Shown piece by piece: positions 48,701 to 64,000 of a stretch of 64,000 nucleotides of DNA (its first letter is position 1; each line of letters begins with the position of its first letter). The notes under the pieces were generated by a model. It was not told the origin of the DNA and did not search any database. It saw nothing but the letters and a program-made list of their open reading frames with translations. This DNA comes from Candidatus Cloacimonadota bacterium (GTDB lineage: Bacteria; Cloacimonadota; Cloacimonadia; Cloacimonadales; TCS61). The translations under genes were made by a program, and so were the position numbers. Location: the NCBI GenBank assembly GCA_030445745.1, contig JASUTE010000001.1, positions 133,664 to 197,663 of the forward strand, in the 5' to 3' direction.

Positions 48701-49504
48701 GAAAGAAAAAAAGCTGAAGAGAAACTGAAACAAACTAATAGGGAATTGAAAGCATTACAGGCAGATTTGCAAAGACGTGTGGATGAAGCTATTAAAGAGA
48801 TAAGAGAAAAAGACCATCTTATCATTAAACAATCTCGCCAAGCAGCGATGGGCGAGATGATAGGCAATATTGCCCACCAATGGCGGCAACCTTTGGCAGC
48901 AGTAGCAGCTATTGTGCAAAGTTTCGAAGATGCTTATGAAGATGGTGAACTAGATGCTGATTACATAGAGGAAAAAACCGATATGATGATGGACTTGTTA
49001 CAACATATGTCTCGTACAATCGATGATTTCCGTAACTTTTTCAAACCAAACAAGGTCAAAGAATCATTTTCTTTGAAAGAAAATATTAAAAAAACCACCA
49101 AACTAATCGCCAGCAGTTTTAAAAATAACAATATTGAACTGCAGTTAGAGTTGGCAGAAGATATAAATATCGAGGGTTATCCTAATGAGTTTTCGCAGGT
49201 AATACTAAATATTTTGAATAATGCCAAGGATGCCTTTGAAGCAAATGAAATAAGCGATCGCAAAGTGAAGATAAGCATTCATAAGAAAAAAAGAAAGAAT
49301 ATTATCTCAATAGAAGATAATGCAGGTGGAATTAAGGATAAAATTCTGGATAAGATCTTTGACCCCTATTTTACTACCAAACATCAAAGTGCGGGAACAG
49401 GTTTGGGCTTGTATATGAGTAAGATGATAGTGGAAAAAAATATGGATGGCCACCTGGAAGTAAAAACTTGGCCAGGTGGCACTCGCTTCGATATTATTCT
49501 TTAA
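45731..49504 (+). CDS. Membrane sensor histidine kinase with TPR and four PAS domains
   Basis: The 1257-aa protein has a signal peptide ('MRKCYLVLLLLLLVGICES'). An extracytoplasmic array of about eight to nine TPR repeats follows (residues 50-430; for example 'AYNNIGIIFDELGDQEKALEYYRKSLEL'), then a coiled coil and one membrane helix near 480-500 ('FFFLAIIALILMIGGVLY'). Four PAS modules span about 505-995 ('ETKFRSLFEGASDAIAIL', 'EENFRMVVEDQTELICRL'). The kinase core has His near 1048 ('NIAHQWRQPLAAVAA'), N-box 'NILNNAKDAF', 'EDNAGGI' and 'GTGLGLYMSK'. No receiver is attached. It is divergent from the purine operon and ends 11 bases into the secretin gene, tail to tail. The ligand is unknown; its partner regulator is not adjacent. 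Confidence 0.9.
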   Translation: MRKCYLVLLLLLLVGICESQTTVIDSLKQELLSTEINKAERVEIILQLVRQYWGNDPDKSLEYVQQAMEIARQNNLPKKIPKVYNYLGITYEFKQEFEKAKDYYNTALLFAKETNNIEQEAYAIYNLGYLADLQGKRERAIEKYTEAIEAYKLVEDNERIAYCYEHIGQLYNEMSDYDASIENYEQAKQFYGEIPDSLSVAALENQVGSIYAGLSDFEKALSSFLKALDIFEQIGNKEGIADTYNFLGNLYKDMNNTSQAFDYYQRSLKLNQELENEDGISIAYNNIGIIFDELGDQEKALEYYRKSLELDKKTKDRNGIATALNNIGIVYQTLGQYDKALQNLLASLEISKELNDKYSTANTSNNIAELYLKTGKLKQADQYLQTSKEITSEIQISSLQMEIYRIEADLLAQRGKYKKAFQIKNKYYAMKDSLFNENSQKIVELQTQYAVEQKEKEIELLERKEEINRLKISSHKRERFFFLAIIALILMIGGVLYHQFKVNKQNSDFLDKVINSLPHPFVVINAENYQIELMNKSAQSENLNIVEYDEKKGRYFRKKNAPYDLDEIIKNKKDEMVFSEFEVNDTRGSRYYEIHAYAIKDNSNNVKKIIEYAFNITERKKAAEKIKRSETKFRSLFEGASDAIAILKDHKFVQCNKQALKLYGVSENELIGRSPLDFSPEYQRDGTPSADLIKEKIDSVLQGNNSFFVWRQIKKNGEIFDAEISLSPLKLDDEIYVQAIIRDITKRLQTQRALEESEAKNSAILQAIPDIMFVFDSKGEYKEIHTTNEDDLIRPAQKLLGNTIRDMIPKKEAEIFYYYIEKAFETGEIQRFEYDLKIGEQRKYFEARLIVMEEDRVLCIVRNYSKQKEAELALKKSEENFRMVVEDQTELICRLNKEGNMTFVNQSLCRYLGAIQEELLGTKLNRYLMEEDLKMVKENLAELTFEKPIVVQEHRMIIDDEVRWTEWTDRKLFDENREFIGYQAVGRDITERKKAEEKLKQTNRELKALQADLQRRVDEAIKEIREKDHLIIKQSRQAAMGEMIGNIAHQWRQPLAAVAAIVQSFEDAYEDGELDADYIEEKTDMMMDLLQHMSRTIDDFRNFFKPNKVKESFSLKENIKKTTKLIASSFKNNNIELQLELAEDINIEGYPNEFSQVILNILNNAKDAFEANEISDRKVKISIHKKKRKNIISIEDNAGGIKDKILDKIFDPYFTTKHQSAGTGLGLYMSKMIVEKNMDGHLEVKTWPGGTRFDIIL

Positions 49505-50558
49505 GTTTCATCCGTTCTATAGCGCTGGGAATTATTTCAACCTTTAATATTATCACCAGCTCTTTTTTACTGGTTTGTGTTTTATCGTAACCGGTAAGAT
49601 AGCGTATACCAAAAAACCACCAAGGTAAGTCTTTTAAAATTGGAATACCTCCGCGTTCCACATTTTCTTCTTCGCTATAAAGACCGGCTATAGCCGTTTC
49701 TTCGCCATCGTACATTACCAAATCGGTACGAGATTGACTTTTATTGATAATAGTGGTAAGCTCACCTGGGTTAGCAGTGCTTCGTTCTATCTGGGTCTGC
49801 ATATGAATGGCTTTTTGACCATTATGTTCTATGATAGTGGGAGTAACATCTAAAATAACACCTGTTGAGAAAAAATTATCGATCACATTTCCTGCCTCAT
49901 CAACTGATTTTATGGAAAAATCTTGACCTACCTGGATATAACCTTTTTTCCCAGATGCGACAATGATATTAGGACTGGCTAATACCTTTCCCAGTTGATT
50001 TGATTCTATTGTTCTTAGCATGGTATCGATATTGATGAAATATCCACCTTCAGTGAATGAATTGGAAGCATCGGCCTGGAAAATATCTCCGGCTACTTTA
50101 GAACCTCCACTAAAAGAAGCACTGGCTTGAACATCACCGTTTAGCAATGTAGACCAATCTATTCCTAATGATTTTAGGAAGGAGTGATCGGCAACAAATG
50201 CTGTGGCGGTTATCTTTATCTGTTCTGAATCTATCGAAACTCCTGCCTCATCAGATTTTTTTTGCGGTAGTTGAATTAAATAGGCACCACTTTGTTCTTC
50301 TACTACTAAATTATTTTGGAGGGCGATTAGTTCTAGTGCTTTTTTCCAATGTAACTGATTTATTGGAACATCGATAGTAGTATTCATATCGGAAAGGTTA
50401 TATATTTTTTTGCCTTCATATTTTTCCGATAAGGTTTCTATGGCAATAAGTGCATCATTCAAGCTTGTATCTTCCGCTAAATTTATTATCTCCATCTTAT
50501 TTTGGGCTGTCAAAAGAGCACAACTGAAAATAAGAAAAACGATTATTATTCTTTTCAT
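49494..50558 (-). CDS. Short secretin-like outer-membrane protein
   Basis: The 354-aa protein has a signal peptide ('MKRIIIVFLIFSCALLTAQ') and an N-terminal domain like the STN/secretin N0 region (about 30-100). The C-terminal secretin domain includes 'LGKVLASPNIIVASGKKGYIQVGQ', 'GVILDVTPTIIEHNG', 'DLVMYDGEETAIAGLYSEE' and 'GIPILKDLPWWFF', the secretin signature. At 354 aa it is much shorter than PilQ or GspD (usually over 600) because the N1-N3 repeats are missing. It is the last gene of the pilus operon and overlaps the PilO/P-like gene by four bases. Confidence 0.87.
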   Translation of the reverse strand: MKRIIIVFLIFSCALLTAQNKMEIINLAEDTSLNDALIAIETLSEKYEGKKIYNLSDMNTTIDVPINQLHWKKALELIALQNNLVVEEQSGAYLIQLPQKKSDEAGVSIDSEQIKITATAFVADHSFLKSLGIDWSTLLNGDVQASASFSGGSKVAGDIFQADASNSFTEGGYFINIDTMLRTIESNQLGKVLASPNIIVASGKKGYIQVGQDFSIKSVDEAGNVIDNFFSTGVILDVTPTIIEHNGQKAIHMQTQIERSTANPGELTTIINKSQSRTDLVMYDGEETAIAGLYSEEENVERGGIPILKDLPWWFFGIRYLTGYDKTQTSKKELVIILKVEIIPSAIERMKLKE

Positions 50559-51418
50559 GATTTATCTCCTTTCAGGCTCATCTTATAAATTTCTTTTTTG
50601 TCATATATTTCCAATTCAAAAATCACTTCTTGGTTTTCGCTGTCGATGTAACTAAGTTTGCCATAGGCAACCGGATCGCCAATATTAAGAATATTGATAA
50701 TCCCGTTAGCTTCTTTTAAAAATGCTTTGTTGTGAGTAAGACCGATTAGTTTGCTCTTTTTCACATTTAGCAGATTGGGATCAGCTGTTGCCTGTTCTTC
50801 AATTTCCATAATTGGCCTGAAATAATTGAAGCGATAAAAATGATAGGGAAGATAACTAAGCTCGATCTTATCGTAAGGACTGCCTGATTGATCGTAATAA
50901 GCATTAAGTTTCATAGAAAATTCCACCGAATCGCTTTTAGCAGAGTTACGGTTAGCAATAGCCAGATCTTCTATAGTGTAAATTGGTTTTTGTTGTTCCA
51001 GATTCAAAATAAATTTTTGTAAATTCATTAAACCAACATTGCCTGTAATCATATATTCGTTGTAGTTGGTTTTTCCGTCTGTATATTTTTTTGATTGGCT
51101 AAAATTGAAACGCAAATTTTGGGAAAAGGCTTTACTAAGCTTCAGAAAATAATCGAAAGTAATGGTAGAGTTATCAGTTTTCAGTAGTACTTTTTTTTCT
51201 CTTAGTTTAGCTTGTTTTAAGTTTTCCAGTTTTTCTAACATCTCTTCTTTTTGTTTTTCAACCTCGGAGCCTGCCGCCAGTTTTTTATTAAGATCTTGAT
51301 GTGTAGCAAGGGCTGTATCTAAATCTGCTTTCAGGTTATTAAGGGAAATGTTTCCCAATATGAAGATGGCCAGTAATAGAAAGACCAGGATTAAAGAATT
51401 TCTGGTTTTATTATTCAT
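50555..51418 (-). CDS. PilO/PilP-like inner-membrane assembly protein
   Basis: The 287-aa protein has a short cytoplasmic start, one membrane helix (about 9-26, 'SLILVFLLLAIFILGNIS'), a coiled coil (28-75) and a ferredoxin-like PilO-type segment ('FDYFLKLSKAFSQNLRF', 'LQKFILNLEQQKPIYTIEDL'). The C-terminus ('IINILNIGDPVAYGKLSYID') has the feel of the small PilP beta domain that docks onto the secretin. A PilO-PilP fusion fits the gene order between PilN-like and secretin. Family assignment rests on topology and context. Confidence 0.6.
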   Translation of the reverse strand: MNNKTRNSLILVFLLLAIFILGNISLNNLKADLDTALATHQDLNKKLAAGSEVEKQKEEMLEKLENLKQAKLREKKVLLKTDNSTITFDYFLKLSKAFSQNLRFNFSQSKKYTDGKTNYNEYMITGNVGLMNLQKFILNLEQQKPIYTIEDLAIANRNSAKSDSVEFSMKLNAYYDQSGSPYDKIELSYLPYHFYRFNYFRPIMEIEEQATADPNLLNVKKSKLIGLTHNKAFLKEANGIINILNIGDPVAYGKLSYIDSENQEVIFELEIYDKKEIYKMSLKGDKS

Positions 51419-53417
51419 TTTGGGCTCCTTCTAATGTTCTCAGTAATTTTTTTGCCTTTGGTAGTACACTGGAAGTTGTATAGTAATTCATAAGGAGTTG
51501 CAATTGTTCAATTGCTTGCTGGTTTTGCCCTTTATTTGCCATTAACTTAGCTTTCATATACATAGCAAATGGCGCCATGTTGTTTTTGGCTTCTATCACC
51601 TGATTGAACAGTTGCAGAGCTTCTTCTGTTTTGCCTTCTTGGTAAATTAGTTCGCCTATTAAATATTTGGAATTCAAGGCTAGTTCATCTTGAGGATATT
51701 TTTCAATTAATTTGCGTGCTAAATTTATAACTTTTTTTCTGTCTCCTTGATAATAAGCGTTAGTGATCTGACGGTAAAGCGTATTGACACTGTTATTTTT
51801 AGTTTCCATAGTTTTAACTGGAGTAACATCTGGTGGCGGAGACTTTTCCTTTTTCTCTATTATCTCAAAGGTACTAATTGCGGGATAATCATAGCTAATA
51901 TCAAAACTCCATATTTCACGTCCTTCCAGGGTTTCACTATCTACACTGGTAATATTGCTGTTGGGAAAGAGTTTGGAAAAATAGATGATATTTTCGCGGT
52001 CATCGGTAATACCGGAAATGATAAAGCCATTTTTTTCGCTTTTTACATTGGTAAGCCAACTTTTGGGGTGAGTAGCAACAGCATAAGCAAACTTATTCAT
52101 TATATAAGTCCATTTATTCTTGTTTTCTAAAATATTCGTTATTTTACTATCGCTTTCTATGATTTGATTAATCTGTTTTTGCACATTTTGAATTATCATT
52201 CTATCTTGCTTTATACTCTGTAATTTTTGTTCCAAATTCTTATTTTTTGCCACCATTTGATTTAATTGTTGATTAAAATTCAAATAGGAATTGGTAAGAT
52301 ATAACACAGTTAAGAAGATAACAGCTAATATCACAAATCCATGCCAACCAATTTTGAATGGTTTTTGAGATTCAATAACCTTCGGTGACAGGAAATTAGA
52401 GGTAATGAAGTGAAGAGTTTTCAGGTGCATTGATTTCATGGCGAGCATAATTGGAATAATATAGGCTGCGATCTCATCTGCTCCTATTTCCGGATCGATG
52501 GTTAGAGGGAAATTTTCGAAAGTAGCTCTCTTTACCTCAATATTTTCATACTTCTGGGAAAAGTAAGCTATATCCTCGTCTTTACTGTAATCTCCCGCTA
52601 TGATTAATTTACTAAATTCGGGAAGATCTTCTTCATCTTCCATAAGCATCAGCTTAGAATAAATTTCCTCTTTGATGTCGAAGCTATTGGCACTGGTCAT
52701 TATGGGAAATGATTTTTTATATGAATTACCTTCCATAAAGATACCCTTTTTGTATTCGTGACCCAAATACAAGAGCAGAGTATTTTCTGAGGCGGCAAGT
52801 TCTTTTGAATTTTTCAGATAATCAGTAAGCAAGATATCATTACAATCGATAAGGGAATAGAAATATTTTTTATGGGCATTTTTCTTATTGAAATCTTGCA
52901 GAAAACTGAATAGCTTATTCTCGCCGCGATGTACTACTATGGTAGTTTGATCATTTACATTAGGTATGAAATTTATCTGAATGTTTTTATCTCGTTTTTC
53001 ATACGGCTTCAATATTTCCAGTTCTACCAATTTGCTGCGGGTGATCTTTTTTTGTGGCAGATTAAGTGTGTGAAAATTGAGCTTATCGTTATTGGCATTC
53101 AAAGCTAATTTACCGCTATTCAAGGGGAAACGGCGTAATAGATACTCGAGAGACATAAATTTACTATGCAGATCTTCTCCTTGGTCCAGATCAAAATCAT
53201 CGCTCTGTTCATTCAAATTTATGGGGCCATTGTTTTCTACATCCCCTTGTTCGAAATTTTTCTTTTTCAATACAGCTCCCGCATATAAGGGAGAATCCAT
53301 AAATTCTTTTTGTAAAGATACAAGCGAAGCTGAATTTTTTTGCATTTGTAACTGAGCAATTTTTATATTCTTCCCATCCTCGAATATGCCAAAATGAAAT
53401 TTGTTCTTTTTACTCAT
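51411..53417 (-). CDS. PilM/PilN-like assembly platform protein with C-terminal TPRs
   Basis: The 668-aa protein starts with an actin-like PilM/GspL-type region ('FHFGIFEDGKNIKIAQLQ', residues 6-340). One membrane helix follows near 354-375 ('FVILAVIFLTVLYL'), then a coiled coil and a PilN-type periplasmic part ('WTYIMNKFAYAVATHPKSWLTNV'). It ends with tetratricopeptide repeats (about 550-660, 'KYPQDELALNSKYLIGELIYQEGK'). Classical systems split PilM and PilN into two proteins. Here they appear fused, as in GspL, with an added periplasmic TPR module. Overlap with the PilO/P-like gene is eight bases. Confidence 0.65.
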   Translation of the reverse strand: MSKKNKFHFGIFEDGKNIKIAQLQMQKNSASLVSLQKEFMDSPLYAGAVLKKKNFEQGDVENNGPINLNEQSDDFDLDQGEDLHSKFMSLEYLLRRFPLNSGKLALNANNDKLNFHTLNLPQKKITRSKLVELEILKPYEKRDKNIQINFIPNVNDQTTIVVHRGENKLFSFLQDFNKKNAHKKYFYSLIDCNDILLTDYLKNSKELAASENTLLLYLGHEYKKGIFMEGNSYKKSFPIMTSANSFDIKEEIYSKLMLMEDEEDLPEFSKLIIAGDYSKDEDIAYFSQKYENIEVKRATFENFPLTIDPEIGADEIAAYIIPIMLAMKSMHLKTLHFITSNFLSPKVIESQKPFKIGWHGFVILAVIFLTVLYLTNSYLNFNQQLNQMVAKNKNLEQKLQSIKQDRMIIQNVQKQINQIIESDSKITNILENKNKWTYIMNKFAYAVATHPKSWLTNVKSEKNGFIISGITDDRENIIYFSKLFPNSNITSVDSETLEGREIWSFDISYDYPAISTFEIIEKKEKSPPPDVTPVKTMETKNNSVNTLYRQITNAYYQGDRKKVINLARKLIEKYPQDELALNSKYLIGELIYQEGKTEEALQLFNQVIEAKNNMAPFAMYMKAKLMANKGQNQQAIEQLQLLMNYYTTSSVLPKAKKLLRTLEGAQNE

Positions 53418-53437: not shown

Positions 53438-54652
53438 TTAGCGAGATATTAACTGTTTTAGCCTTTTTTTGTTGTTAGCGTAGTTAAGAGCTGCTTCCAA
53501 ACTAATTTTTCTTCTATTCAAAAGGTTAGCTAAGTCCTGTTCCATTGTAATCATACCCTTTTTGCTTCCTTCCGTAATCATTTGATAGATCTCACCAATA
53601 TTTTTATTAATTATGGCAGCTCTTACCGAACTGTCAACAGCTAATATTTCTTTAGCTAACACCAGTTTACCATCCAATCCTGGAACCAGTTTTTGGGAAA
53701 TAACTATACTAAGTGTTTCGGCTAATCTTATCCTTATTCTGTCTTGTTCGCGTGGTGGGAATTCAGCGATAATTCGGTTCAAGCTATCGATAGCTGAATT
53801 TGTGTGTAGAGTAGAAAATGTTTTATGTCCACTATCAGTTATTTCCAACAGTGTAGCTATTTCATCAGCATCACGGATTTCGCCTATTACCACAATATCG
53901 GGGTCTTGCCGCAAAGATTCTATAATACCTTTTTGGAAGGAGATTACATCGGTTCCCACCTCGCGATGACGCACAATGCATTTTTCGGAAGTATGAATGT
54001 ATTCGATAGGATTCCCTACGATAACGATATGACCATTGTTACTGTGGTTATTCATGTCAATTATGGAATCGAGGGTGGTGCTTTTTCCGGAGCCGGTAAG
54101 TCCGGTAACCAGTGTTAATCCGAATTTTTCATATTGTAAGTTCAATCTTTTTACAATAGGTTCTGCAAAGCCCAATGATTCGATGGGAAAGACAAAAGTA
54201 TTTATTTTACGAAAATTGGCTGCTAAACTGCTTTGTTCCAAATAAATTGTGCCACGGAACCGAGTTTCTTTGGTATCTTCATCATGTAGTTTTATAGAAA
54301 AAGAAAAATCTAGGCTTTTATTTTTATAGAATCTTTCTTTTTGCTGTTTATTAAGTATGCTAAGTACCACAAAAGCTGATTCCAATTCATCTATTTTCCC
54401 AAATTCAGGTGCAGGAGATTTGGTGCCATAAACACGATACCAGATCTTTCCTCCACAACCTGGGCCTCCTAAATCCAAGTCAGAAGCATCGATTTGATGT
54501 TGATATTGGAGTAGCGAAAATAAATAATTTTGTGCTTCTTGGCACCATTGAGAGTTTTCTGCAGCTAATTTGTCGAATTTTTTATAAAGTTCACTCGGTG
54601 AAATATTAAAAGTTTTTTGTGCTAGCAGTTTGGGTAAAAATGATAGTGCCAT
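53438..54652 (-). CDS. PilT-like secretion/retraction ATPase
   Basis: The 404-aa AAA+ hexameric ATPase is related to the twitching motor PilT. The Walker A is 'GLTGSGKSTTLDSI', the Walker B region 'DPDIVVIGEIRDADE', followed by the His box 'TFSTLHTNSAIDSLNRII'. An unusual point is the Asp box: PilT normally has 'EDPIE', while here it is 'VGNPIEYIH'. The N-terminal 170 residues are larger and less similar than in standard PilT (about 350 aa). It is encoded between the receiver-cNMP gene and the PilM/N-like gene. Confidence 0.82.
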   Translation of the reverse strand: MALSFLPKLLAQKTFNISPSELYKKFDKLAAENSQWCQEAQNYLFSLLQYQHQIDASDLDLGGPGCGGKIWYRVYGTKSPAPEFGKIDELESAFVVLSILNKQQKERFYKNKSLDFSFSIKLHDEDTKETRFRGTIYLEQSSLAANFRKINTFVFPIESLGFAEPIVKRLNLQYEKFGLTLVTGLTGSGKSTTLDSIIDMNNHSNNGHIVIVGNPIEYIHTSEKCIVRHREVGTDVISFQKGIIESLRQDPDIVVIGEIRDADEIATLLEITDSGHKTFSTLHTNSAIDSLNRIIAEFPPREQDRIRIRLAETLSIVISQKLVPGLDGKLVLAKEILAVDSSVRAAIINKNIGEIYQMITEGSKKGMITMEQDLANLLNRRKISLEAALNYANNKKRLKQLISR

Positions 54653-54655
54653 CGA

Positions 54656-55519
54656 TTACTCCTTATCTGGATTTGTGTAAGTATAGCCCAAGAACATAGC
54701 AATTTTGCCCATACTTTTTTTCCATTTCAAATACATCAGATTCATCAGGTTAATCATAAATAATTTCAGGAGACTTTCCTTGTGATATTTGAAGAATTCT
54801 ATGATGTTTTTTCGGTTGTAGTGTCTTACCACGCACTTTTTTTTGGCCTTTAAAGTGGTAAAATTTCTATTGGAAGGAATAAAGGTTTCTTCGCCCCAAC
54901 TTTGTCCTTCTTCCAGGTTTTCTATCAAGGTTTCACTGATGTAAACAGAAGCTGTGCCAGTTTCTAAAAGGATTATCGTTCCAGGTTCATCGGTAAGAGG
55001 GATTTTTTCTCCGGGTTGATAAGTTTTTCTAACAGCTAATTCGTGGAAATCCGCTTTTTCTTCCGAACTGAAATTTCTGAGCATAATATTATCGAAAAAA
55101 TTCTTCCCAGGTGCTGTTTCTTCAGAAGATTTGGGCATACTTCCTGTAAGTTCATTATGGTGTTCCATACCTCGCTTAACCACATTTAGTAATTCTTCCC
55201 CAATGATAGGTTTGGTGATATAATGAAAAGCTCCACCGCGGATAGCATTGATAGCTCCATCGATACTAGAATAGCCGGTGGTAATTATTACTACAGCCAG
55301 CGGATATTTTTCCTTGATCTTTTTCATTAGCTGCATGCCATCCATTCGGGGCATGTAGACATCCAATATGAACAAATCGAACTGTTCATATTGCATTTTA
55401 TCTAAAGCATCTTGGCCGTCTACTGCAGTTGTAACCTGATAATCTTTATCAGTTAAAAGATCTTTAATAATCTCCCGAATATTTTGCTCGTCATCAACGA
55501 CTAGTATTTTACGTTTCAT
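54656..55519 (-). CDS. Response regulator with C-terminal cNMP-binding-like domain
   Basis: The 287-aa protein has an N-terminal receiver domain with phospho-acceptor Asp53 ('LFILDVYMPRMDG'), an acidic pocket 'VVDDEQ' and Lys in 'YITKPI'. The C-terminal half (about 155-260) resembles a cyclic nucleotide-binding fold ('TYQPGEKIPLTDEPGTIILLETGTASVYI', 'GQSWGEETFI'). No DNA-binding domain is seen, so the output is probably protein-protein, for example on the adjacent PilT-like motor. It overlaps the kinase-like gene by 11 bases. Whether it binds a nucleotide is not shown. Confidence 0.82.
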   Translation of the reverse strand: MKRKILVVDDEQNIREIIKDLLTDKDYQVTTAVDGQDALDKMQYEQFDLFILDVYMPRMDGMQLMKKIKEKYPLAVVIITTGYSSIDGAINAIRGGAFHYITKPIIGEELLNVVKRGMEHHNELTGSMPKSSEETAPGKNFFDNIMLRNFSSEEKADFHELAVRKTYQPGEKIPLTDEPGTIILLETGTASVYISETLIENLEEGQSWGEETFIPSNRNFTTLKAKKKCVVRHYNRKNIIEFFKYHKESLLKLFMINLMNLMYLKWKKSMGKIAMFLGYTYTNPDKE

Positions 55520-56420
55520 TTTTAAGTTCCCTCTCTATTTTTTTTACTAATTCGTTTGTTTTAAGCACCTGCAGTTTTTGCAGAAGCTTAGTTATATCGT
55601 TTATTGCCGATGATATCTCGTTGCTGCTTTTAGCTAGTTTTTCATCTTCATATTTGGCTGCTGCTTCTTTTACTCGGGTTACCGAGAGTGAGATTACACA
55701 AAGTGGAGTGTTTATATCGTGATCAAGATGTGAAATTTTAGCAGCGACTTTACTGAGATTTTCGAATTTTTCATTCTCTTCTTCCAGGTTTCTTAATCCA
55801 GCATTCAAAGTATCCAAATCGGCTTGTAATTGGATATTTTCATCTTCGAATTTCGCTGATTGAGTGTTCAGTTTTTTTAGCAGATCACTGATGAAATTAG
55901 CTATTAGTGCCATACCTGTGAATAAACCTGCATAAGAGATTAGAAAAATGGTGGTGGAGGGCGTATCCATTGCATTGGTTTCTGTTATAGGGGTTAAGAG
56001 AGAGTATTTGTATAACAGTAATAATGCAGTTAAGGCCGCAGTTGATATGAGACCTGTGATAACACCCCCCATATTTTCCACCGTTAAACTAGCTGTAATA
56101 ACTCCAATTAGGTATATCCATATAAAAGAACTATGAAAACCACCTGTGATATGTACTACGGCAGTAGCATAAGCAACATCTAATAAAATCTGTAAAATTG
56201 CAAAGAACTGTCTTTGTTTTATAATCTGTATTTGGAACAATATATTCATTATTGTTAGTCCTAAAAAGGTGAATATGAAAATGTAAATAGGATACGTTTC
56301 TTGTAGTTGGTTAACTTGCAAAATTCCAATGGAAAATATAATAACTAAGAAGAACCAGCGGATATTTGCCCACCATTTGTACATCATTTCTTCGTAATTT
56401 TTAACTTTTGTTTGTGCCAT
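55509..56420 (-). CDS. Membrane histidine kinase-like protein lacking a catalytic domain
   Basis: The protein has about 303 aa from the ATG at 56420 (AAGGAG upstream; the track start 56441 adds seven residues). Five to six hydrophobic segments fill residues 20-190, then comes a coiled coil (200-230). A dimerisation/phosphotransfer helix pair follows with the H-box 'HLDHDINTPLCVISLSVTRV'. The chain ends soon after, at 'ELVKKIERELKNET', without N, G1 or G2 boxes. It cannot bind ATP by itself. It may be phosphorylated by another kinase or act as a phosphatase or anchor for the overlapping receiver-cNMP protein. Confidence 0.8.
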   Translation of the reverse strand: MAQTKVKNYEEMMYKWWANIRWFFLVIIFSIGILQVNQLQETYPIYIFIFTFLGLTIMNILFQIQIIKQRQFFAILQILLDVAYATAVVHITGGFHSSFIWIYLIGVITASLTVENMGGVITGLISTAALTALLLLYKYSLLTPITETNAMDTPSTTIFLISYAGLFTGMALIANFISDLLKKLNTQSAKFEDENIQLQADLDTLNAGLRNLEEENEKFENLSKVAAKISHLDHDINTPLCVISLSVTRVKEAAAKYEDEKLAKSSNEISSAINDITKLLQKLQVLKTNELVKKIERELKNET

Positions 56421-56431
56421 AATATTGCTCC

Positions 56432-57325
56432 TTAATTCCAATTAGTAATATAGTAACTGGAAAATACAGGCATGTTATAGATATCTTCTGAGAGAACATT
56501 GGAATCAAAATTAACTTCACAGTTACCTGTAAGTATAGCATCGCCATCTATTTCTATCGTACTTTCAACAAAAAGTGCACCATCAAAGTTGGCGTTCCCA
56601 GAAATACGGACATTGCCCATTATCCAGACAATTCCCTGGAAATACATGTTCCCAGACACATTTAAATTACCATTAACAATAAGAATTCCACTTCCTTCCC
56701 AATTACTTGAGATAATAAAACTTGAATTTTCTTCCAAATCGATCCAGGTGATATCTGCAACTGGAGTGATATTGTTCGCCGGATCCACATAATAGTTATT
56801 GGCGTAATCTTTGGCGTGCTGTTTATCAATTCCAAATATTTCTTCAAAATCGGGAGGAGTATTTTCGCTAATATCACCATTTACTTCTGCGCTTCCTTGC
56901 ACTGTTACTGAACCTGCTGCTGTGATAGCTGAACTAAGGTTTATCTGATTTGAAGGTTGCTGGTAAAGTGTGGTTGACTTAACCTCGGTTGCAGTTTCTC
57001 CAGCTACATTAGCGTGTACATATGCCTTTAATAAAATTTCATTAGAAGTTATTTTACGATAAATGAGGCTGTCTATACTACCATTTCCGATATCGAAATT
57101 GGTATAGGAAAGTTTCAGCAAACTATCTGTAATGGAAACTTCGGTGTTGCGTAGTTTCTTAATAGCAAAGTTAAGTGCATAATTTGCCAGTGATTCTGCT
57201 TCTTTTTCTACAACATTTTGCGAAATAGTTTTGGGAACTTTTTGCATCTTATCTGCCAGAGAAATGCTAATAGCACTTAAAATTGTGCCCAAAATAAGTA
57301 TTGAAATTATTATTACTTTTCCCAT
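56432..57325 (-). CDS. PilX-like pilus-associated protein with beta-solenoid region
   Basis: The 297-aa protein has an N-terminal hydrophobic helix ('MGKVIIISILILGTILSAISISLA') and an alpha-helical stretch ('ESLANYALNFAIKKLR') of the pilin/PilX kind, with no charged leader. The C-terminal half is a run of short beta repeats ('GILIVNGNLNVSGNMYFQGIVWIMGNVRISGNANFDGALFVES'), similar to bactofilin/DUF-type solenoids seen in putative tip or minor pilins. It is encoded between the other pseudopilin-like genes and the sensor, and is a plausible tip adhesin or initiator. The family is not firmly identified. Confidence 0.6.
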   Translation of the reverse strand: MGKVIIISILILGTILSAISISLADKMQKVPKTISQNVVEKEAESLANYALNFAIKKLRNTEVSITDSLLKLSYTNFDIGNGSIDSLIYRKITSNEILLKAYVHANVAGETATEVKSTTLYQQPSNQINLSSAITAAGSVTVQGSAEVNGDISENTPPDFEEIFGIDKQHAKDYANNYYVDPANNITPVADITWIDLEENSSFIISSNWEGSGILIVNGNLNVSGNMYFQGIVWIMGNVRISGNANFDGALFVESTIEIDGDAILTGNCEVNFDSNVLSEDIYNMPVFSSYYITNWN

Positions 57326-57334
57326 ATCAATCTC

Positions 57335-57901
57335 CTATAAAAACATGTTGTAAAAATATTGCCAAAGCACTATCTGGCTTTTCAGGTTAACTTCGAAATT
57401 TTCCTTGTTTATTCCCTTTTGGAAGAAATCCAATTTAATTCTGGCATATCTAATTGAATCTATATAGGTAGTAACAGGGCTACTTAGTTCAGTGTCATCT
57501 GCTTTATAATAATTTACTTCTAAGCTATCGGACAACCAAAAGGGTCCCATAATTAAGCTACCATTTTGATATACTTTTAAAGGATAACCACTGGCAGTAC
57601 TATCTTCCTGAACCAATTTTATCGTAGCAACAGCTGTTTCTTGGGCTAATCTCCCCTTAAATTCAAATTCATTGCTTTTAGCGGTAGTTATCATAGTAGA
57701 ATCTGGATCTACACCAGAGCCTACCCGAGCTAAAATTTCATTGTTCAAAATCGATGTAACCTCTTCAGAGATATCGTTTAGGGAAACTTGCATTTCCAGA
57801 TTCATAGCTGTAGTCTGAATGGTAAACAGTCCGTTTAAAATGCTAACGATCAGCATTCCACCAACAACTGTTGCCCATATAGTTTCCAGAATCGCTGTCA
57901 T
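57335..57901 (-). CDS. Pseudopilin-like membrane protein
   Basis: The 188-aa protein has an N-terminal hydrophobic helix (about 8-30, 'TIWATVVGGMLIVSILNGLF') followed by an amphipathic alpha segment ('MNLEMQVSLNDISEEVTSILNNEIL') and a beta-rich C-terminus. The topology and neighbours suit a minor pseudopilin or PilV/W-like protein. A canonical prepilin peptidase site (Gly before Phe/Met-Thr-Leu-Ile-Glu) is not obvious. The role is inferred from context. Confidence 0.55.
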   Translation of the reverse strand: MTAILETIWATVVGGMLIVSILNGLFTIQTTAMNLEMQVSLNDISEEVTSILNNEILARVGSGVDPDSTMITTAKSNEFEFKGRLAQETAVATIKLVQEDSTASGYPLKVYQNGSLIMGPFWLSDSLEVNYYKADDTELSSPVTTYIDSIRYARIKLDFFQKGINKENFEVNLKSQIVLWQYFYNMFL

Positions 57902-57909
57902 GATATCTC

Positions 57910-58344
57910 CTAATTTATCTGAATCTTTGCTAACATTTTGGTAATAGGGGCACTTTCTGTTCCAATAAAGATAGTGTCCTGATTACCCTTAACAGTATAT
58001 ATTTTAAAATCCAATCTTTGAAAATTACTACTAGAGCCTACATCTATTCCCAGAGAATCGCAGTAGGAAGAGGAGATGTTATAATGATAGACTTGGCCTT
58101 CTACTGAAATACTATTTTCCAAGGAAGAGTATTCAGTATAGATTTGGCTGAAGTCCTTAGTTTCGCTAATGATGCTGGCCATAATGCTTTGGTAAATTTT
58201 CTCTACTATTTGCAGGCCTTGCAGATAATAATTGGTGTTATAGATTGTTTCCGCTTGCTCTATTATACCATTATAATAAGTTAGGAACAAGGTAGAAAAC
58301 AAAATAACTGCAAATAATACAAAGAGTAATTGACCTGTACCCAT
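57910..58344 (-). CDS. Pseudopilin-like membrane protein
   Basis: The 144-aa protein starts almost directly with a hydrophobic helix ('GTGQLLFVLFAVILFSTLFLTYY') followed by an alpha segment and a beta-rich domain. This is the shape of a small pilin-like subunit. No typical type IV leader with a Glu5 is seen. Start and PilB stop overlap by one base (TAATG), so the gene is coupled to PilB. Confidence 0.55.
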   Translation of the reverse strand: MGTGQLLFVLFAVILFSTLFLTYYNGIIEQAETIYNTNYYLQGLQIVEKIYQSIMASIISETKDFSQIYTEYSSLENSISVEGQVYHYNISSSYCDSLGIDVGSSSNFQRLDFKIYTVKGNQDTIFIGTESAPITKMLAKIQIN

Positions 58345-60122
58345 TAGTTGTTCTCCGAGGTTGCATAGGCTACTTCTTCAATGGTAGTGTAGCCTTGCAA
58401 AATTCTATCCATTCCAGATTGACGCATCGAAAGCATGCCATGCTTTTCTGCCAGTTTTCGAATATTTACTACATCTATATCATCTCCGGCCTTCATTATT
58501 GCTTCGCTTATATCCGGATAGAAATAGAGTGCTTCTGCGATATTGATTCTTCCTTTATAACCAGCTGTACATTTAGGACAGCCCACTGCTTCGTATACTC
58601 TCCCTGCTTCCAGGTCTTCTTGCTTCAAGCCAAACTCCATAGCAGCATTCCATTTCTCTTTGGAAAGTGGACGCTTACAATTATCACATAGTTTTCTCAC
58701 CAACCTTTGTGCTATTATAATGTTGATCGAATAAGCTAGCAGGAATGGCTCTACACCCATTTTATACAAGCGAGAGATGGCACTGGGTGCATCATTGGTA
58801 TGCAAGGTAGAAAGCGTGAGATGACCTGTATTGGCCAGCTTTACAGCTAAATCTGCTGTTTCCTTGTCGCGAATCTCGCCAACCATGACCACATCGGGGT
58901 CATGACGCAAAATAGAGCGGATAGCTTGATCGAAACGCATTTTGTGGCTTATCTTTAGTTGACGTGCTCCTTTTATAACGTATTCCACTGGGTCTTCACA
59001 GGTTAAAACGTTCTTGGTAGGATCGATAACATAGTGCAAGGCTGCCATCAGGGTAGTACTTTTACCACTACCGGTGGGACCAGTAACTATCACAATACCT
59101 TTAGAAGAGCTTATTGCTTTATGAAATTCTTTTTCAGCAAGTTTCTGAAAACCCAATTTTCTAAAATCTGTAATTACCTTTCTATCGTCAATGACTCGTA
59201 TAACCACACTTTCGAAGCGGCGATGAAATTCTGAAGAAACAACGGGAATAATCGAAATACGAAAACGAATAAGGTGGTCATCGATAAACCTTTGTGCAAA
59301 TCCATCCTGCGCTTCATCGCGCTCGAATCTATCGATTCCCTGGAATCGATCTTTTACTACAGCAGCGAAAGCTTCTGGCATCGTGTTTTCTTGCCGGTGC
59401 CACAGCCGCAACTTGCCGTCTATTCTAAAGTAGATCTCGAAGGCTGTTTCGGAAGCTGCAATTATGTGAAGGTCGCTAACATCGCTTCTTACAGCTTCCA
59501 CTAGAGCACCCTCAAATAGATTTACTAGCTGGCTTTTATTGATCTTTTCATCTAACTCTTTCTTGTCTACTTCATATTCTTCTTTTTCCACATCAACTAC
59601 TTCATCACCTACTTCTTCCAAAAGTTCCAAAAATTCATTTTTTTGAGGGGATATCAAGTCCATTATATCCATCAAATTGTTGAGTGGGCAATAAACCACT
59701 TCGTATTTCTTAAAATCTGTCACTTCGGGTATCTGCTGGGTCAGTTTATTGGTTGGATCAGCGGATAGTACCTTAAGACGATCTCCTGTTTTTGAGATAA
59801 TTTTATAGGGAAAGATCTTATGGAAAAACAGCTTTTTACGGAAATTCTCTGGGAATTGCTGTAGGATATTTTTGGTTTCTTCGATTTGCTTATCATCAAT
59901 TTTTTCCAAGGCAATGTATTCTTTTCGGAAAGCATAAAGTTCTGCTAGAGTGCTATATATGCTATCGTGTGGTATATGAAACTCGGATACCAGGATTTTG
60001 GCTAAATTGGAGGGAGTTTTTTCATTACTCTCTTCCAATCTTTTTATCGCTTTTTGTAAAATTTCTTCGGTTATAATGTTTTCTTTTAATAAGCGTTTGC
60101 CGAATTTTGATTTTTCTATCAT
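58344..60122 (-). CDS. PilB/GspE-type assembly ATPase
   Basis: The 592-aa hexameric ATPase powers pilus or pseudopilus assembly. The N-terminal MshEN-like region (about 1-150) can bind c-di-GMP in some homologues. The core has Walker A 'VTGPTGSGKSTTLMAAL' (about 334-350), an Asp box 'LTCEDPVEYVI', Walker B 'DPDVVMVGEIRDKET' and 'LSTLHTND'. The zinc tetracysteine site is 'LCDNCKRP...VGCPKCTAGYKGR'. All catalytic motifs are intact, unlike the PilT-like protein. It lies 16 bases after the PilC gene. Confidence 0.93.
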   Translation of the reverse strand: MIEKSKFGKRLLKENIITEEILQKAIKRLEESNEKTPSNLAKILVSEFHIPHDSIYSTLAELYAFRKEYIALEKIDDKQIEETKNILQQFPENFRKKLFFHKIFPYKIISKTGDRLKVLSADPTNKLTQQIPEVTDFKKYEVVYCPLNNLMDIMDLISPQKNEFLELLEEVGDEVVDVEKEEYEVDKKELDEKINKSQLVNLFEGALVEAVRSDVSDLHIIAASETAFEIYFRIDGKLRLWHRQENTMPEAFAAVVKDRFQGIDRFERDEAQDGFAQRFIDDHLIRFRISIIPVVSSEFHRRFESVVIRVIDDRKVITDFRKLGFQKLAEKEFHKAISSSKGIVIVTGPTGSGKSTTLMAALHYVIDPTKNVLTCEDPVEYVIKGARQLKISHKMRFDQAIRSILRHDPDVVMVGEIRDKETADLAVKLANTGHLTLSTLHTNDAPSAISRLYKMGVEPFLLAYSINIIIAQRLVRKLCDNCKRPLSKEKWNAAMEFGLKQEDLEAGRVYEAVGCPKCTAGYKGRINIAEALYFYPDISEAIMKAGDDIDVVNIRKLAEKHGMLSMRQSGMDRILQGYTTIEEVAYATSENN

Positions 60123-60138: not shown

Positions 60139-61479
60139 CTAAAATCCGGTTGGTGGTGAAACTGTTGAAATTTCTGCAGAAACTATGGTGAGCAGTGTGA
60201 TAACTATTGCTATGAAGAAGCCGATAACAGTTTGAATAAGTTCAATAAGTGATTCCATTTTGTAGGTGGTTTCAGCTTCAAAATAGGAAGCTATCTGCTG
60301 AGCTGGTTTTAAAATATTACCTGTTTCCGACCCGCTTTTCAACCTGGAGATCACCGAACGTGGAAAAACTCCGGAGGCCTGCATAGCAGGGACGAATGCT
60401 TCACCTTTTTCCAACATTAAAGGTACGGTTACTGTTTTTATCATTTTTTCTATATATTTATTTCTACAAGCCTCAGCTGAAATTAAGATTGTTTCAATAT
60501 TATCGGAAGCACCAGCATAAACAGTGGCAAATACTCGGAAAAAAATCTCGATACTGGTTTTGTGAATAAGGTGGCCGATTACTGGTAACTTTATAATGAA
60601 CCTATCACGCCATACTTGTCCCGAGGGGGTAGACCACCAGCGCCAGATTATTAGTACAGGAATGAAGAATGCTCCCAAAATATACAGATAATTATTACCC
60701 AACCAATCACTCAGTTCCAAGGTTTTTTGGGTCATAGGTGGTAGGTCGATACCCAGTTTAACAAATAGTTCAGTGGTAGCGGGGAAAATTTCCATTACAT
60801 AATACATTACAGCGCCAATTGTTGCTAGCACAGCAAACATCGGTGATACTAACGCTTTCTTAATATTTTTTCTGATCTCGCTGTCGCGCTCTATAAAAGT
60901 ATTAGTAGCTTCAAATATTTTAGCCATATTACCACTCTGAGTAGCTAAACCCATCATAAATGCTGGGAATTTGCCAAACACATCGGTATATTTCTTGAAA
61001 ACTTCCTGGCCTTCAGCTCCTTGTTTCAATTCTTTTTCTATCTGATACAGAGTTTCCTTAAGAACACTATTATTTTGCTCTTCCGCTAAAAGACTTAATA
61101 CCTGGCCAAAATTCATTTTATCGTTTAGCATGTTGGTGCTAAGCTTGATGAACATCTGGATATCACTCTTGGATGGCTTCATTTGGATATCGAATAGCAT
61201 TGGCGAAATAGTAAAGTCGTCATAACCCATGTTTTTTAATCCCCTGGCTACCTCTTCTTTGGAATAAGCTTTTTGCTTACCCTTTATCTTTTTCTTATTA
61301 GGAAGCTTAATAGTATAGAGGAAAGTGCGCTTTTGTTCTATATCGGTGATGTTCAAATTGTATTTTTGGGCTAATTTATCAATTTTCTCTTTGGCATTTT
61401 TCAAGTTACGCGCATTCACCGTGCCTTGCGCTGACCTGCCTTGGGGTGAAATCCCTCTGAACCTAAATTCCTTGATCAT
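60139..61479 (-). CDS. PilC/GspF-type inner-membrane platform protein
   Basis: The 446-aa polytopic protein has two T2SSF repeats (about 105-235 and 310-430; 'LSTNMLNDKMNFGQVLSLLAEEQ', 'FFRVFATVYAGASDNIETILISAE'). Membrane helices lie near 215, 270 and at the C-terminus ('LIELIQTVIGFFIAIVITLLTIVSAEIS'). An N-terminal 100-residue cytoplasmic extension starts 'MIKEFRFRGISPQGRSAQGTV'. It is the first gene of the operon, with GAGAGG before the ATG and the sigma-54 site about 25 bases upstream. Confidence 0.92.
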   Translation of the reverse strand: MIKEFRFRGISPQGRSAQGTVNARNLKNAKEKIDKLAQKYNLNITDIEQKRTFLYTIKLPNKKKIKGKQKAYSKEEVARGLKNMGYDDFTISPMLFDIQMKPSKSDIQMFIKLSTNMLNDKMNFGQVLSLLAEEQNNSVLKETLYQIEKELKQGAEGQEVFKKYTDVFGKFPAFMMGLATQSGNMAKIFEATNTFIERDSEIRKNIKKALVSPMFAVLATIGAVMYYVMEIFPATTELFVKLGIDLPPMTQKTLELSDWLGNNYLYILGAFFIPVLIIWRWWSTPSGQVWRDRFIIKLPVIGHLIHKTSIEIFFRVFATVYAGASDNIETILISAEACRNKYIEKMIKTVTVPLMLEKGEAFVPAMQASGVFPRSVISRLKSGSETGNILKPAQQIASYFEAETTYKMESLIELIQTVIGFFIAIVITLLTIVSAEISTVSPPTGF

Positions 61480-61502
61480 AGTTTCCTCTCGTAGAAAACT
61501 AA

Positions 61503-61518
61503 TGCAATTTTGGTTCCA
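61503..61518 (-). promoter_or_regulatory. Sigma-54 promoter of the pilus operon
   Basis: The minus strand reads TGGAACCAAAATTGCA. This fits the -24/-12 consensus TGGCAC-N5-TTGC[A/T] with one mismatch and exact GG-N10-GC spacing. Transcription would start near 61492, leaving a 13-base leader that holds the ribosome-binding site of pilC. The gene immediately upstream (61636-63018) encodes a sigma-54 activator. Confidence 0.72.
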
Positions 61519-61635
61519 CTTGTTTCTTTTTTACGAATCCTTTATTTATGCTACTCTCTAATTGTAACTTCTATTTTTCTCTGTATTAATAAACATTCAC
61601 CATCATTTTGGTGTAATAAATTATATTCAGGAAGG

Positions 61636-63018
61636 TTAGCGAAAATCTGTTGGATCTAAATTGTATTTTTTTAATTTAGGATACAAATTTTGGCGTAAAA
61701 TTCCAGTAGTTTCTGCAGCTTTGGTAATATTGCCCTTACATTTTTCTAAAATGGTTTTAAAATAATCTTTTTCAAATTTTTGTTTAGCTTGTTTAAAATT
61801 CAAAGAAGCTAATTTATCTATATTGGAATTTTGAACTTCTGCTACCGGATAAAGATTATGTGGTAAATCATGAGGTAGAATAGCACTATGTTCAGCTAAT
61901 ATCACGGCTCTTTCTATTACATTGCGCAATTCCCTTACATTTCCTTTCCATTCTGCCGAGCGTAAAATAGACATAGCTGGTGACGAAATTTCCAGATCTG
62001 GTTTGTTGTATTTCAGTTTAAATTCATCTAAAAAACATTTTGCGAAGACTTCGATATCTTCTACTCTTTTACGCAGAGGGGGAATGGAGAGATTAATTAT
62101 ATTGAGGCGATAATAAAGATCTTCGCGGAATTTCCCATTTTCTACCAGAGTTTTAATATCTTTGTTGGTTGCCACAATCAGTCTTACGTCGATTTTTATA
62201 TCCTTTTCTCCTCCTACCTTACGAATTACCTTATTTTCTATTGCCCGTAATAATTTAACCTGAAATGAGGCTGAAGTCTCGGTAATTTCATCTAAAAACA
62301 AACTGCCATGCTGGGCTTCTTGGAAATAGCCTTGCGTGGAACGCACAGCATCTGTAAAAGCTCCTTTTTCATGGCCAAAGAGATGACTTTCTAACAAAGT
62401 TTCAGGGATACTTCCACAGTTTACAGTAACAAATTTATTCTCTTTACGTGGGCTATTTTCATGAATTAGTCGGGCTATTAGGCTTTTACCTACTCCAGTT
62501 TCGCCTGTTATGAGCATGGTGGTATCTAAAGGTGCTATTTTCTCAACCATTTTAAAAATATTCTGCATCACTTTGCTAGTTCCTATTATCGGCTTAGAAG
62601 AAACCTGTTTATTCAAAATAGAATTGAGTCTCTTATTTTCCTGAACCAGCCATTGCTTATTCAAAATTTTATCGATAAGCACAGTTAGTAATTCCAAATC
62701 GCTTATTGGTTTCAGGATAAATTCTTCTGCTCCCAGCTTCATCGCTTCTACTGCATTTTGAATGGTAGCCTGACCACTAATGACTATAATTGAGATATAA
62801 GGCCATCTTTTGCGAATAGTTTGCATCAATTCCAAACCATTGCGTCCTGGCATTACTAAATCGGTTATGGCAATATTAAAACTCTCTGTTTCTAAAGTCT
62901 GTAAAGCTGATTCTGCCGATTGTACAGCGGTTACATCGTATCTATCGGAAAGAAAATCCTGCAAAAGTTCCAAAGTGTCTTTTTCATCATCTACGATTAA
63001 AATTTTATTGTTTTTCAT
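61636..63018 (-). CDS. NtrC-type sigma-54-dependent response regulator
   Basis: The 460-aa activator has a receiver with Asp53 ('IAITDLVMPGRNG'). The AAA+ domain carries Walker A 'TGETGVGKSLIARLI', the sigma-54 contact loop 'GAFTDA' (a variant of GAFTGA), Walker B 'GSLFLDEITE', the 'GKFREDLYYRLNIINL' sensor region and 'WKGNVRELRNVIERAV'. It ends with a Fis-type helix-turn-helix ('AAETTGILRQNLYPKLKKY'). Phosphorylation by the kinase encoded two bases upstream would trigger it to open sigma-54 promoters, most likely that of the adjacent pilus operon. Confidence 0.95.
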   Translation of the reverse strand: MKNNKILIVDDEKDTLELLQDFLSDRYDVTAVQSAESALQTLETESFNIAITDLVMPGRNGLELMQTIRKRWPYISIIVISGQATIQNAVEAMKLGAEEFILKPISDLELLTVLIDKILNKQWLVQENKRLNSILNKQVSSKPIIGTSKVMQNIFKMVEKIAPLDTTMLITGETGVGKSLIARLIHENSPRKENKFVTVNCGSIPETLLESHLFGHEKGAFTDAVRSTQGYFQEAQHGSLFLDEITETSASFQVKLLRAIENKVIRKVGGEKDIKIDVRLIVATNKDIKTLVENGKFREDLYYRLNIINLSIPPLRKRVEDIEVFAKCFLDEFKLKYNKPDLEISSPAMSILRSAEWKGNVRELRNVIERAVILAEHSAILPHDLPHNLYPVAEVQNSNIDKLASLNFKQAKQKFEKDYFKTILEKCKGNITKAAETTGILRQNLYPKLKKYNLDPTDFR

Positions 63019-63019
63019 G

Positions 63020-63733
63020 TTATCCTCGAATTGGGAACATTATCTGAGCTGTTACCCTCTCTTCTTTGGCAATTAATTTAATTTCTGAATTATATTTTTT
63101 TAAAATATATTTCACTAAAGGTAAACCCAACCCATATTCGGAATTGTTCTTAGTAGTAAATTCTGGTAAGAATATTTTTTCGGTAGGAGTGGGAATTTTA
63201 CCTCTGTTATTTATTTCTAATTCAACTCTTGAATTTGATAGCTTAGTGGTGATAAATATTTTATTTTCATCGATAGCTTGCAATGCTTCCACAGCATTGT
63301 TTAATAAATTATCTAATATCAGATGCAAATCGCCTGCTGCAATATGTAATTTTGGCAGATTTTTGGTTAAATCGGTTTCCACCTTGATATTATGCTTAAA
63401 AAATAAATTAAAACTCATTAGCTTCAAATGATTAACTATCTCTTCATTCAGATTCAAGAAAACAGGCATCTCATTCTTAAATTTTTCTATATCCAAAGCT
63501 AAATTTTTAAATTCTTTATCAATTTCTAAACCAGCTTGATATATTTTTTCTACAGCTTTAAGCTCAGGATTTCTATTCCTAAGAATTTGAGCATAGCCCA
63601 GAATTGTATTCAACGGTGAATTCAAATTGTGAATTATGCCTTCCAATTTACAGCCTAATATAGCTAAGCGAGCTTTTCTTAAAATTTCTAATTCATGCTT
63701 CTTCATTTTCATTAAATATCTGGTTAAGAACAC
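63020..63733 (-). CDS. Cytosolic sensor histidine kinase
   Basis: The 237-aa protein consists of little more than the kinase core. The phospho-acceptor lies in 'GIIHNLNSPLNTILGYAQIL', N-box in 'LILDNLLNNAVEALQA' and G2-like 'YGLGLPLVKYIL'; the G1 box is weak ('INNRGKIP'). No membrane or PAS domain is present. The GTG at 63733 has GAGG upstream; an ATG at 63712 is the alternative. It overlaps the upstream receiver gene and is followed two bases later by the NtrC-type regulator, so it is the cognate kinase. Confidence 0.88.
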   Translation of the reverse strand: MFLTRYLMKMKKHELEILRKARLAILGCKLEGIIHNLNSPLNTILGYAQILRNRNPELKAVEKIYQAGLEIDKEFKNLALDIEKFKNEMPVFLNLNEEIVNHLKLMSFNLFFKHNIKVETDLTKNLPKLHIAAGDLHLILDNLLNNAVEALQAIDENKIFITTKLSNSRVELEINNRGKIPTPTEKIFLPEFTTKNNSEYGLGLPLVKYILKKYNSEIKLIAKEERVTAQIMFPIRG

Positions 63734-64000
63734 GCATAATATCCTCTATTTTAAAAGGTTTAGCTAAAACTCCCTTGAATCCAAATTCTTTATAGTTGGC
63801 CATTACCGGATCCATAGAATAACCACTGGAGACTATAGCTGTTACTTTTGGATCTATCTCTTTTAATTTATTAATAGCTTCTTTGCCACCCATACCACCT
63901 GGTACAGTAAGATCCATAATTACAACTTCAAAAGGTTCTTCATCCAGTGCTTTTTTATATTTTTTAATTGCTTCTTCGCCATCTGTTGCAGTTTCTACCT
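63693..64000 (-). CDS. Receiver domain, C-terminal end of a gene running off the window
   Basis: The frame is open from the window edge to the TGA at 63693. About 102 residues of a receiver are visible ('EEPFEVVIMDLTVPGGMGG', with the phospho-acceptor Asp in 'MDL'; 'TAIVSSGYS'; 'GVLAKPFKIEDI'). The 'DLTVPGGMGGKEA' style is common in the C-terminal receiver of hybrid histidine kinases, so this may be the tail of a large hybrid sensor. The N-terminus is outside the window. It overlaps the small kinase gene. Confidence 0.85.
   Translation of the reverse strand, partial: VETATDGEEAIKKYKKALDEEPFEVVIMDLTVPGGMGGKEAINKLKEIDPKVTAIVSSGYSMDPVMANYKEFGFKGVLAKPFKIEDIMRVLNQIFNENEEA

Follow-up and report, generated by a model that had tools for sequence, protein, structure and literature searches.

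The 64,000-nucleotide stretch of DNA analysed here (the window; contig C16:133664-197663 of genome G000, a 2.04-Mb, 99.3% complete, metagenome-type assembly in 38 contigs) carries directly before pilC, the first of eleven pilus-assembly genes, a -24/-12 element that is probably a functional sigma-54 promoter, by descent from a pilin promoter. We propose that the ancestral element would drive the major pilin gene of Cloacimonadota under a dedicated, PilS/PilR-like pair of kinase and NtrC, and that loss of the pilin gene and of an RNA hairpin in the window lineage would have left the promoter directly before pilC. The kinase, judging from its adjacency, would phosphorylate NtrC; the NtrC hexamer would be expected from its sequence to touch sigma-54 through the GAFTDA loop; RNA polymerase-sigma54 would open the DNA at 61492, as predicted from the motif; and the transcript, with a 13-nt leader, would span the eleven-gene operon. 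The features of the promoter region are as follows.

61503-61518, minus strand: sigma-54 -24/-12 element TGGAACCAAAATTGCA, recognised from its sequence, chance tests and synteny with the pilin sites of relatives.
61492, minus strand: predicted transcription start, placed 12 bases past the GC element of the motif, with the C of GC at -12.
61484-61490, minus strand: Shine-Dalgarno-like GAGAGGA of pilC, seen in the sequence inside the 13-nt leader.
61598-61613, minus strand: CACC-N8-GGTG inverted repeat following ntrC, which resembles a weak terminator hairpin and could otherwise be no more than a divergent site for an activator.

The element runs on the minus strand from T61518 to A61503, with GG at 61517-61516 and GC at 61505-61504, ten bases apart and with TGGCAC- and TTGCW-like flanks, and it has 10 of the 11 consensus bases of a sigma-54 promoter. 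A first-pass annotation of this DNA had reported such a motif here, and both its sequence and its coordinates are exact; it had also placed the transcript start 13 bases ahead of pilC so as to include the ribosome-binding site, which agrees with the leader predicted from the motif, ACGAGAGGAAACT, lying between the predicted +1 and the pilC ATG at 61479 and holding GAGAGGA. There are no perfect matches to TGGCACN5TTGCW in the window and four with one mismatch, the pilC site being one of these; with a weight matrix made from the sites of relatives it scores 12.3 bits and ranks sixth among all window positions on both strands. Taken alone, without comparative evidence, the match is modest and suggestive at best, and it is the addition of the comparative evidence that makes it convincing. 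The only palindrome in the intergenic gap is CACC/GGTG (one of this kind found versus 0.3 expected), with a T-rich tail behind it; we rejected it as an activator site because of this tail and because relatives lack a counterpart. As a weak terminator-like hairpin behind ntrC, it is consistent with pilC having a promoter of its own.

The genome encodes sigma-54. It has one full-length copy of rpoN (481 aa, 358.6 bits, above the curated cut-off), whose product ends in an RpoN-box-like SRRVVSKYRE and which adjoins an lptB-like gene. Pattern searches, together with selected stretches, gave 50 matches to TGGNACN6TGCW and 41 to TGGMAYN5TTGC, against 6 for the reversed pattern in each case; most hits lie within genes, but for those that are intergenic the predicted leaders are mostly 12-34 nt before the start codon, a range that the 13-nt leader of pilC fits, and many of the genes behind them encode exported proteins with signal-peptide-like N-termini.

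Downstream of the promoter are eleven closely packed genes on the minus strand, from 61479 down to 49494, with no gap larger than 20 bp, just as the operon had been described.

60139-61479, minus strand: PilC/GspF platform protein, operon gene 1 (Pfam T2SSF, NCBIfam PilC/GspF).
58344-60122, minus strand: PilB assembly ATPase (family match).
57910-58344, minus strand: minor pilin-like protein of 144 aa, MGTGQLLFVLF..., which stands beside the pilin in relatives.
57335-57901, minus strand: minor pilin-like protein of 188 aa (operon layout and relatives' loci).
56432-57325, minus strand: 297-aa protein, hydrophobic at its N-terminus and with a stretch weakly resembling bactofilin, possibly a minor pilin or tip protein.
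55509-56441, minus strand: PilS-like six-transmembrane sensor with H-box HDINTP and without an ATPase (kinase) domain (PF25323 6TM_PilS, weak HisKA).
54656-55519, minus strand: response regulator with a cNMP-binding-like domain (domain match).
53438-54652, minus strand: PilT-family retraction ATPase (TIGR01420, 300 bits, just under the cut-off of 319).
51411-53417, minus strand: PilM/PilN-like protein with TPR (family matches).
50555-51418, minus strand: PilO-like protein, named by size and position, with no family match.
49494-50558, minus strand: secretin of the PilQ/GspD family, the last operon gene (family match).

The machine had been called a pilus or secretion system; the pilus part of this stands and can be narrowed to a type IV pilus because of the PilB- and PilT-family ATPases and the PilQ-like secretin. 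The parts of a type IVa pilus, PilB, PilT, PilC, alignment proteins and secretin, are all present, allowing that the PilT-family match is just below its cut-off and that PilO is assigned by position, and a type II secretion system was rejected as the identity of the operon since the PilT-family ATPase speaks for a pilus. A major pilin is absent from the window and from the assembly as a whole.

Comparison with relatives provides a likely account of this absence. All of the named-record relatives of the window pilC are Candidatus Cloacimonadota, and the loci of close relatives run from kinase and NtrC-type activator through a sigma-54 site, the pilin and an RNA hairpin to pilC and pilB; the stretch from kinase to pilC, with NtrC, sigma-54 site and pilin in between, is seen, for example, in G019, G004, G026, G013, G023, G024 and G017. 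In many relatives the gene next after ntrC encodes a protein of 130-160 aa with the N-terminus MGTQQILLIVLSVIIVG, with pilC, pilB and the rest downstream; its position and its hydrophobic N-terminus are our grounds for calling this MGTQQILLIV... protein the pilin, and it is named by no family model. A good sigma-54 site (a score of at least 8/11 within 110 nt of the gene) precedes 45 of the 55 MGTQQ pilin genes, some of which are from closely related species and thus not fully independent, with leaders of 25-81 nt, whereas 3% of random 110-bp stretches from the same DNA have one. Of the remainder, one has only a poor match and nine have no GG-N10-GC in the 110-nt span; some of the nine come second or third in a pilin array, and for some a site lies a few bases beyond the span. 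The sites in sister genomes are TGGAACATTAATTGCG or close to it, with the exception of G014, which has TGGAATATTAATTGCT; that of the window, at 12.3 bits, is the lowest of the set (13.5-23.0 bits for 42 distinct relatives' sites), and it has a C at a position where all 45 relatives have an A or a G. Of 40 gaps between pilin and pilC in relatives, 31 contain a perfect stem of 8-15 bp (e.g. L157, L160, L070 and L143), its sequence varying between lineages and with no evident T-run in those inspected. We infer that this hairpin acts as a stabilizer or attenuator, letting pilin transcripts exceed those of the machine; its loss in the window would bring the machine directly under the promoter.

The window locus has the order of its sister genomes minus the pilin and the hairpin, and the simplest reading is that the pilin has been lost from it. 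No pilin was found elsewhere in the 99.3% complete genome by protein search, by a DNA pattern for MGTQQI or by a profile that does find one in 47 of 59 relatives' genomes, and the 144-aa operon protein was rejected as the sole pilin because relatives carry both a protein of this type and the pilin. PilC trees contain two operon types, and this genome has both, one in the window and one on contig C20; the window PilC is sister to those of G014, G019 and G004 (support 98/83). In the NtrC tree the window protein stands next to the activators from G014, G019, G004 and G026, and those of the other operon type are joined by a second NtrC of this genome, from contig C4. Because the gene order of relatives and both the PilC and NtrC trees pair the window with loci of the pilin-bearing kind, the pilC site is most likely an inherited pilin promoter that remained after the pilin and hairpin were lost. 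The C20 operon, which is diverged from that in the window, begins at C20:304, 303 bp from a contig end with repeat-like sequence, and with its start so near this end, a pilin may be hidden in a gap of the assembly. The second kinase-NtrC pair, at C4:4702-6075, has no pilin adjoining it.

Upstream of the promoter, the first-pass annotation had placed a complete kinase-NtrC pair on the same strand, with the NtrC acting on the sigma-54 site.

61636-63018, minus strand: NtrC/PilR-type response regulator with a receiver, a sigma-54 AAA+ domain (GAFTDA) and a Fis HTH.
63020-63733, minus strand: soluble histidine kinase with H-box HNLNSP, HATPase and a degenerate G1 box.
63693-64000, minus strand: 3' part of the gene for a 642-aa hybrid kinase (receiver-PAS-kinase-receiver), which starts outside the window.

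The adjacency is as described, and the pair is conserved across the order, but to call the kinase complete is slightly generous; its H and N boxes are present, and its G1 box is INNRG where nearly all homologues have D[ST]G. The NtrC has the domains of its family, including the Walker A motif GETGVGKS and the GAFTDA loop; homologues have GAFTDA, GAFTGA, GSFTSA and similar variants at this loop, and for Desulfovibrio GAFTDA appears among the variants compatible with activation (PMC4641369). Its recognition helix, RQNLYPKLKK, has a proline that all 30 of the compared homologues lack. Ahead of the promoters of relatives, TGACA/TGTCA words are over-represented (ATGTCAC, for example, occurs 9 times versus 0.8 expected), often near -150 to -215, yet neither is present in the 400 bp upstream of the pilC site. 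The tandem NtrC sites that the first-pass annotation suggested looking for between 61520 and 61640 have so far found no support, the sole palindrome there being the terminator-like one, although an activator site could be divergent or distant. We infer that the window NtrC acts at the pilC promoter, a link drawn from synteny and co-inheritance and not from a binding site. The circuit that had been predicted, from kinase to machine, stands for the promoter, rpoN and the operon, and its arrangement is conserved at this place in relatives; the loss of the pilin had not been anticipated.

Several other explanations have to be weighed against an inherited and working promoter. The site and the DNA binding of its activator could have been decaying since the pilin was lost, with pilC expressed mainly by read-through from ntrC or from a housekeeping promoter. 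The missing pilin itself, the lowest score of any site in the set, the absent enhancer element and the proline in the recognition helix are all as such a relic would have them, and the weakness of the terminator after ntrC would permit read-through; the one sigma-70-like match, at 61589-61561, is a poor one (9/12) and no more than expected by chance. However, the most important core bases (TGG, A and TTGC) are all intact with exact spacing, the AAA+ domain and the kinase are open and full length, and no operon gene is broken; we consider decay unlikely, though it ranks next after the preferred reading. It is quite unlikely, too, that a real sigma-54 promoter is served here by a different activator: this genome has 21 activator-like matches, and the contig C4 NtrC, which has no pilin beside it, keeps the normal recognition helix (RQNLYDK), but that protein belongs by its grouping with the other operon type, whereas the window NtrC and PilC group with the same sister lineage, as expected of partners.

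A coincidental motif, with no sigma-54 promoter at pilC, would be no surprise in the window at large, where a shuffled 64 kb sequence would be expected to hold 3.4 sites as good as this one; in the 156-bp intergenic gap and on the one strand the expectation falls to 0.004, and coincidence would leave unexplained both the syntenic position conserved in relatives and a leader length that fits the other sites of the genome, which makes it very improbable. We hold it to be just as doubtful that the assembler dropped a pilin that really lies between the site and pilC. The assembly is of the metagenome type, in 38 contigs, the pilin is missing from all of it, and the second pilus operon does start 303 bp from a contig end with repeat-like sequence; nevertheless, the 290 kb contig is unbroken through ntrC, the site and pilC, and the clean deletion of a single-copy stretch of about 500 bp would be an unusual error. 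The preferred reading thus remains a sigma-54 promoter inherited from the pilin gene.

The sensor encoded within the operon (55509-56441) is unusual in lacking a kinase domain, but this is not peculiar to the window; nine complete homologues also end without an ATPase domain. Most of them have HDINTP as the H-box, whose histidine is an arginine instead in the G004 lineage. The kinase-less PilS-like form is conserved in Cloacimonadota, and the cNMP-binding-like response regulator (54656-55519) is found next to it in relatives as well. PilS of Pseudomonas aeruginosa senses pilin directly through six transmembrane segments (PMC6058289), and since the window has a truncated sensor together with a separate kinase, a split PilS is a reasonable hypothesis. 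Tentatively, the kinase-less sensor, kept in the pilus operon throughout Cloacimonadota, might act in trans on the separate soluble kinase and through it on the NtrC/sigma-54 pilin promoter, and with loss of the pilin in the window lineage this unit might have turned to control of the machine. How the level of pilin is sensed by a PilS-like protein of this form is a question that it raises.

Circuits joining pilin, sigma-54 and a two-component system are known chiefly from Proteobacteria. In the PilS-PilR-RpoN-pilA system of P. aeruginosa and others, a kinase and an NtrC-family regulator act with sigma-54 on pilin and pilus genes (PMC6058289). The window resembles it in having the activator adjacent to the pilus genes with a sigma-54 site between them and in encoding a PilS-type six-transmembrane sensor domain in the operon, and in relatives the promoter is directly before the pilin. 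It departs from it in that its promoter precedes pilC with no pilin after it, its six-transmembrane sensor is not fused to a kinase, an active-looking kinase being separate and soluble, and no enhancer element was found in the 400 bp upstream of its site. We therefore regard the window circuit as a variant of PilS-PilR-RpoN-pilA, which works alike but misses the fused PilS kinase and the pilin target. In commensal Neisseria, RpoN and the Npa-Nps two-component activator control the pilE pilin promoter (PMC6528607), which is similar in its components although its target is the pilin and not the assembly operon, and the phylum is unrelated. More generally, sigma-54 has been surveyed as a controller of the bacterial exterior, including nutrients, envelope and motility (Francke et al. 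2011; PMC3162934), a theme echoed by the many exported-protein genes behind intergenic sites in this genome; a 2025 comparison of sigma-54 regulons does not mention Cloacimonadota (PMC12316311). The circuit is thus extended to an uncultured phylum, and because it is conserved across many of its genera it can be used for annotating pilus regulation there; the window lineage adds a natural example of such a circuit with promoter, activator and machine kept and the regulated gene apparently lost.

Two further sigma-54 sites in this genome deserve mention. About 3.9 kb past the end of the window, at C16:201558-201648 on the minus strand (L052, L111), there is a strong site, TGGCACGCTAATTGCA, from whose predicted +1 a 68-nt RNA would extend with three hairpins and a terminator at its end (fold z-score -6.0), followed by a gene for a 719-aa exported protein. 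A search of relatives and of Rfam returned no counterpart and no family for this RNA, which is possibly a sigma-54-dependent small RNA or a leader. The other strong site, at C33:202991 (L107), lies between a gene for a GAFTGA-type activator and one for a 385-aa exported protein.
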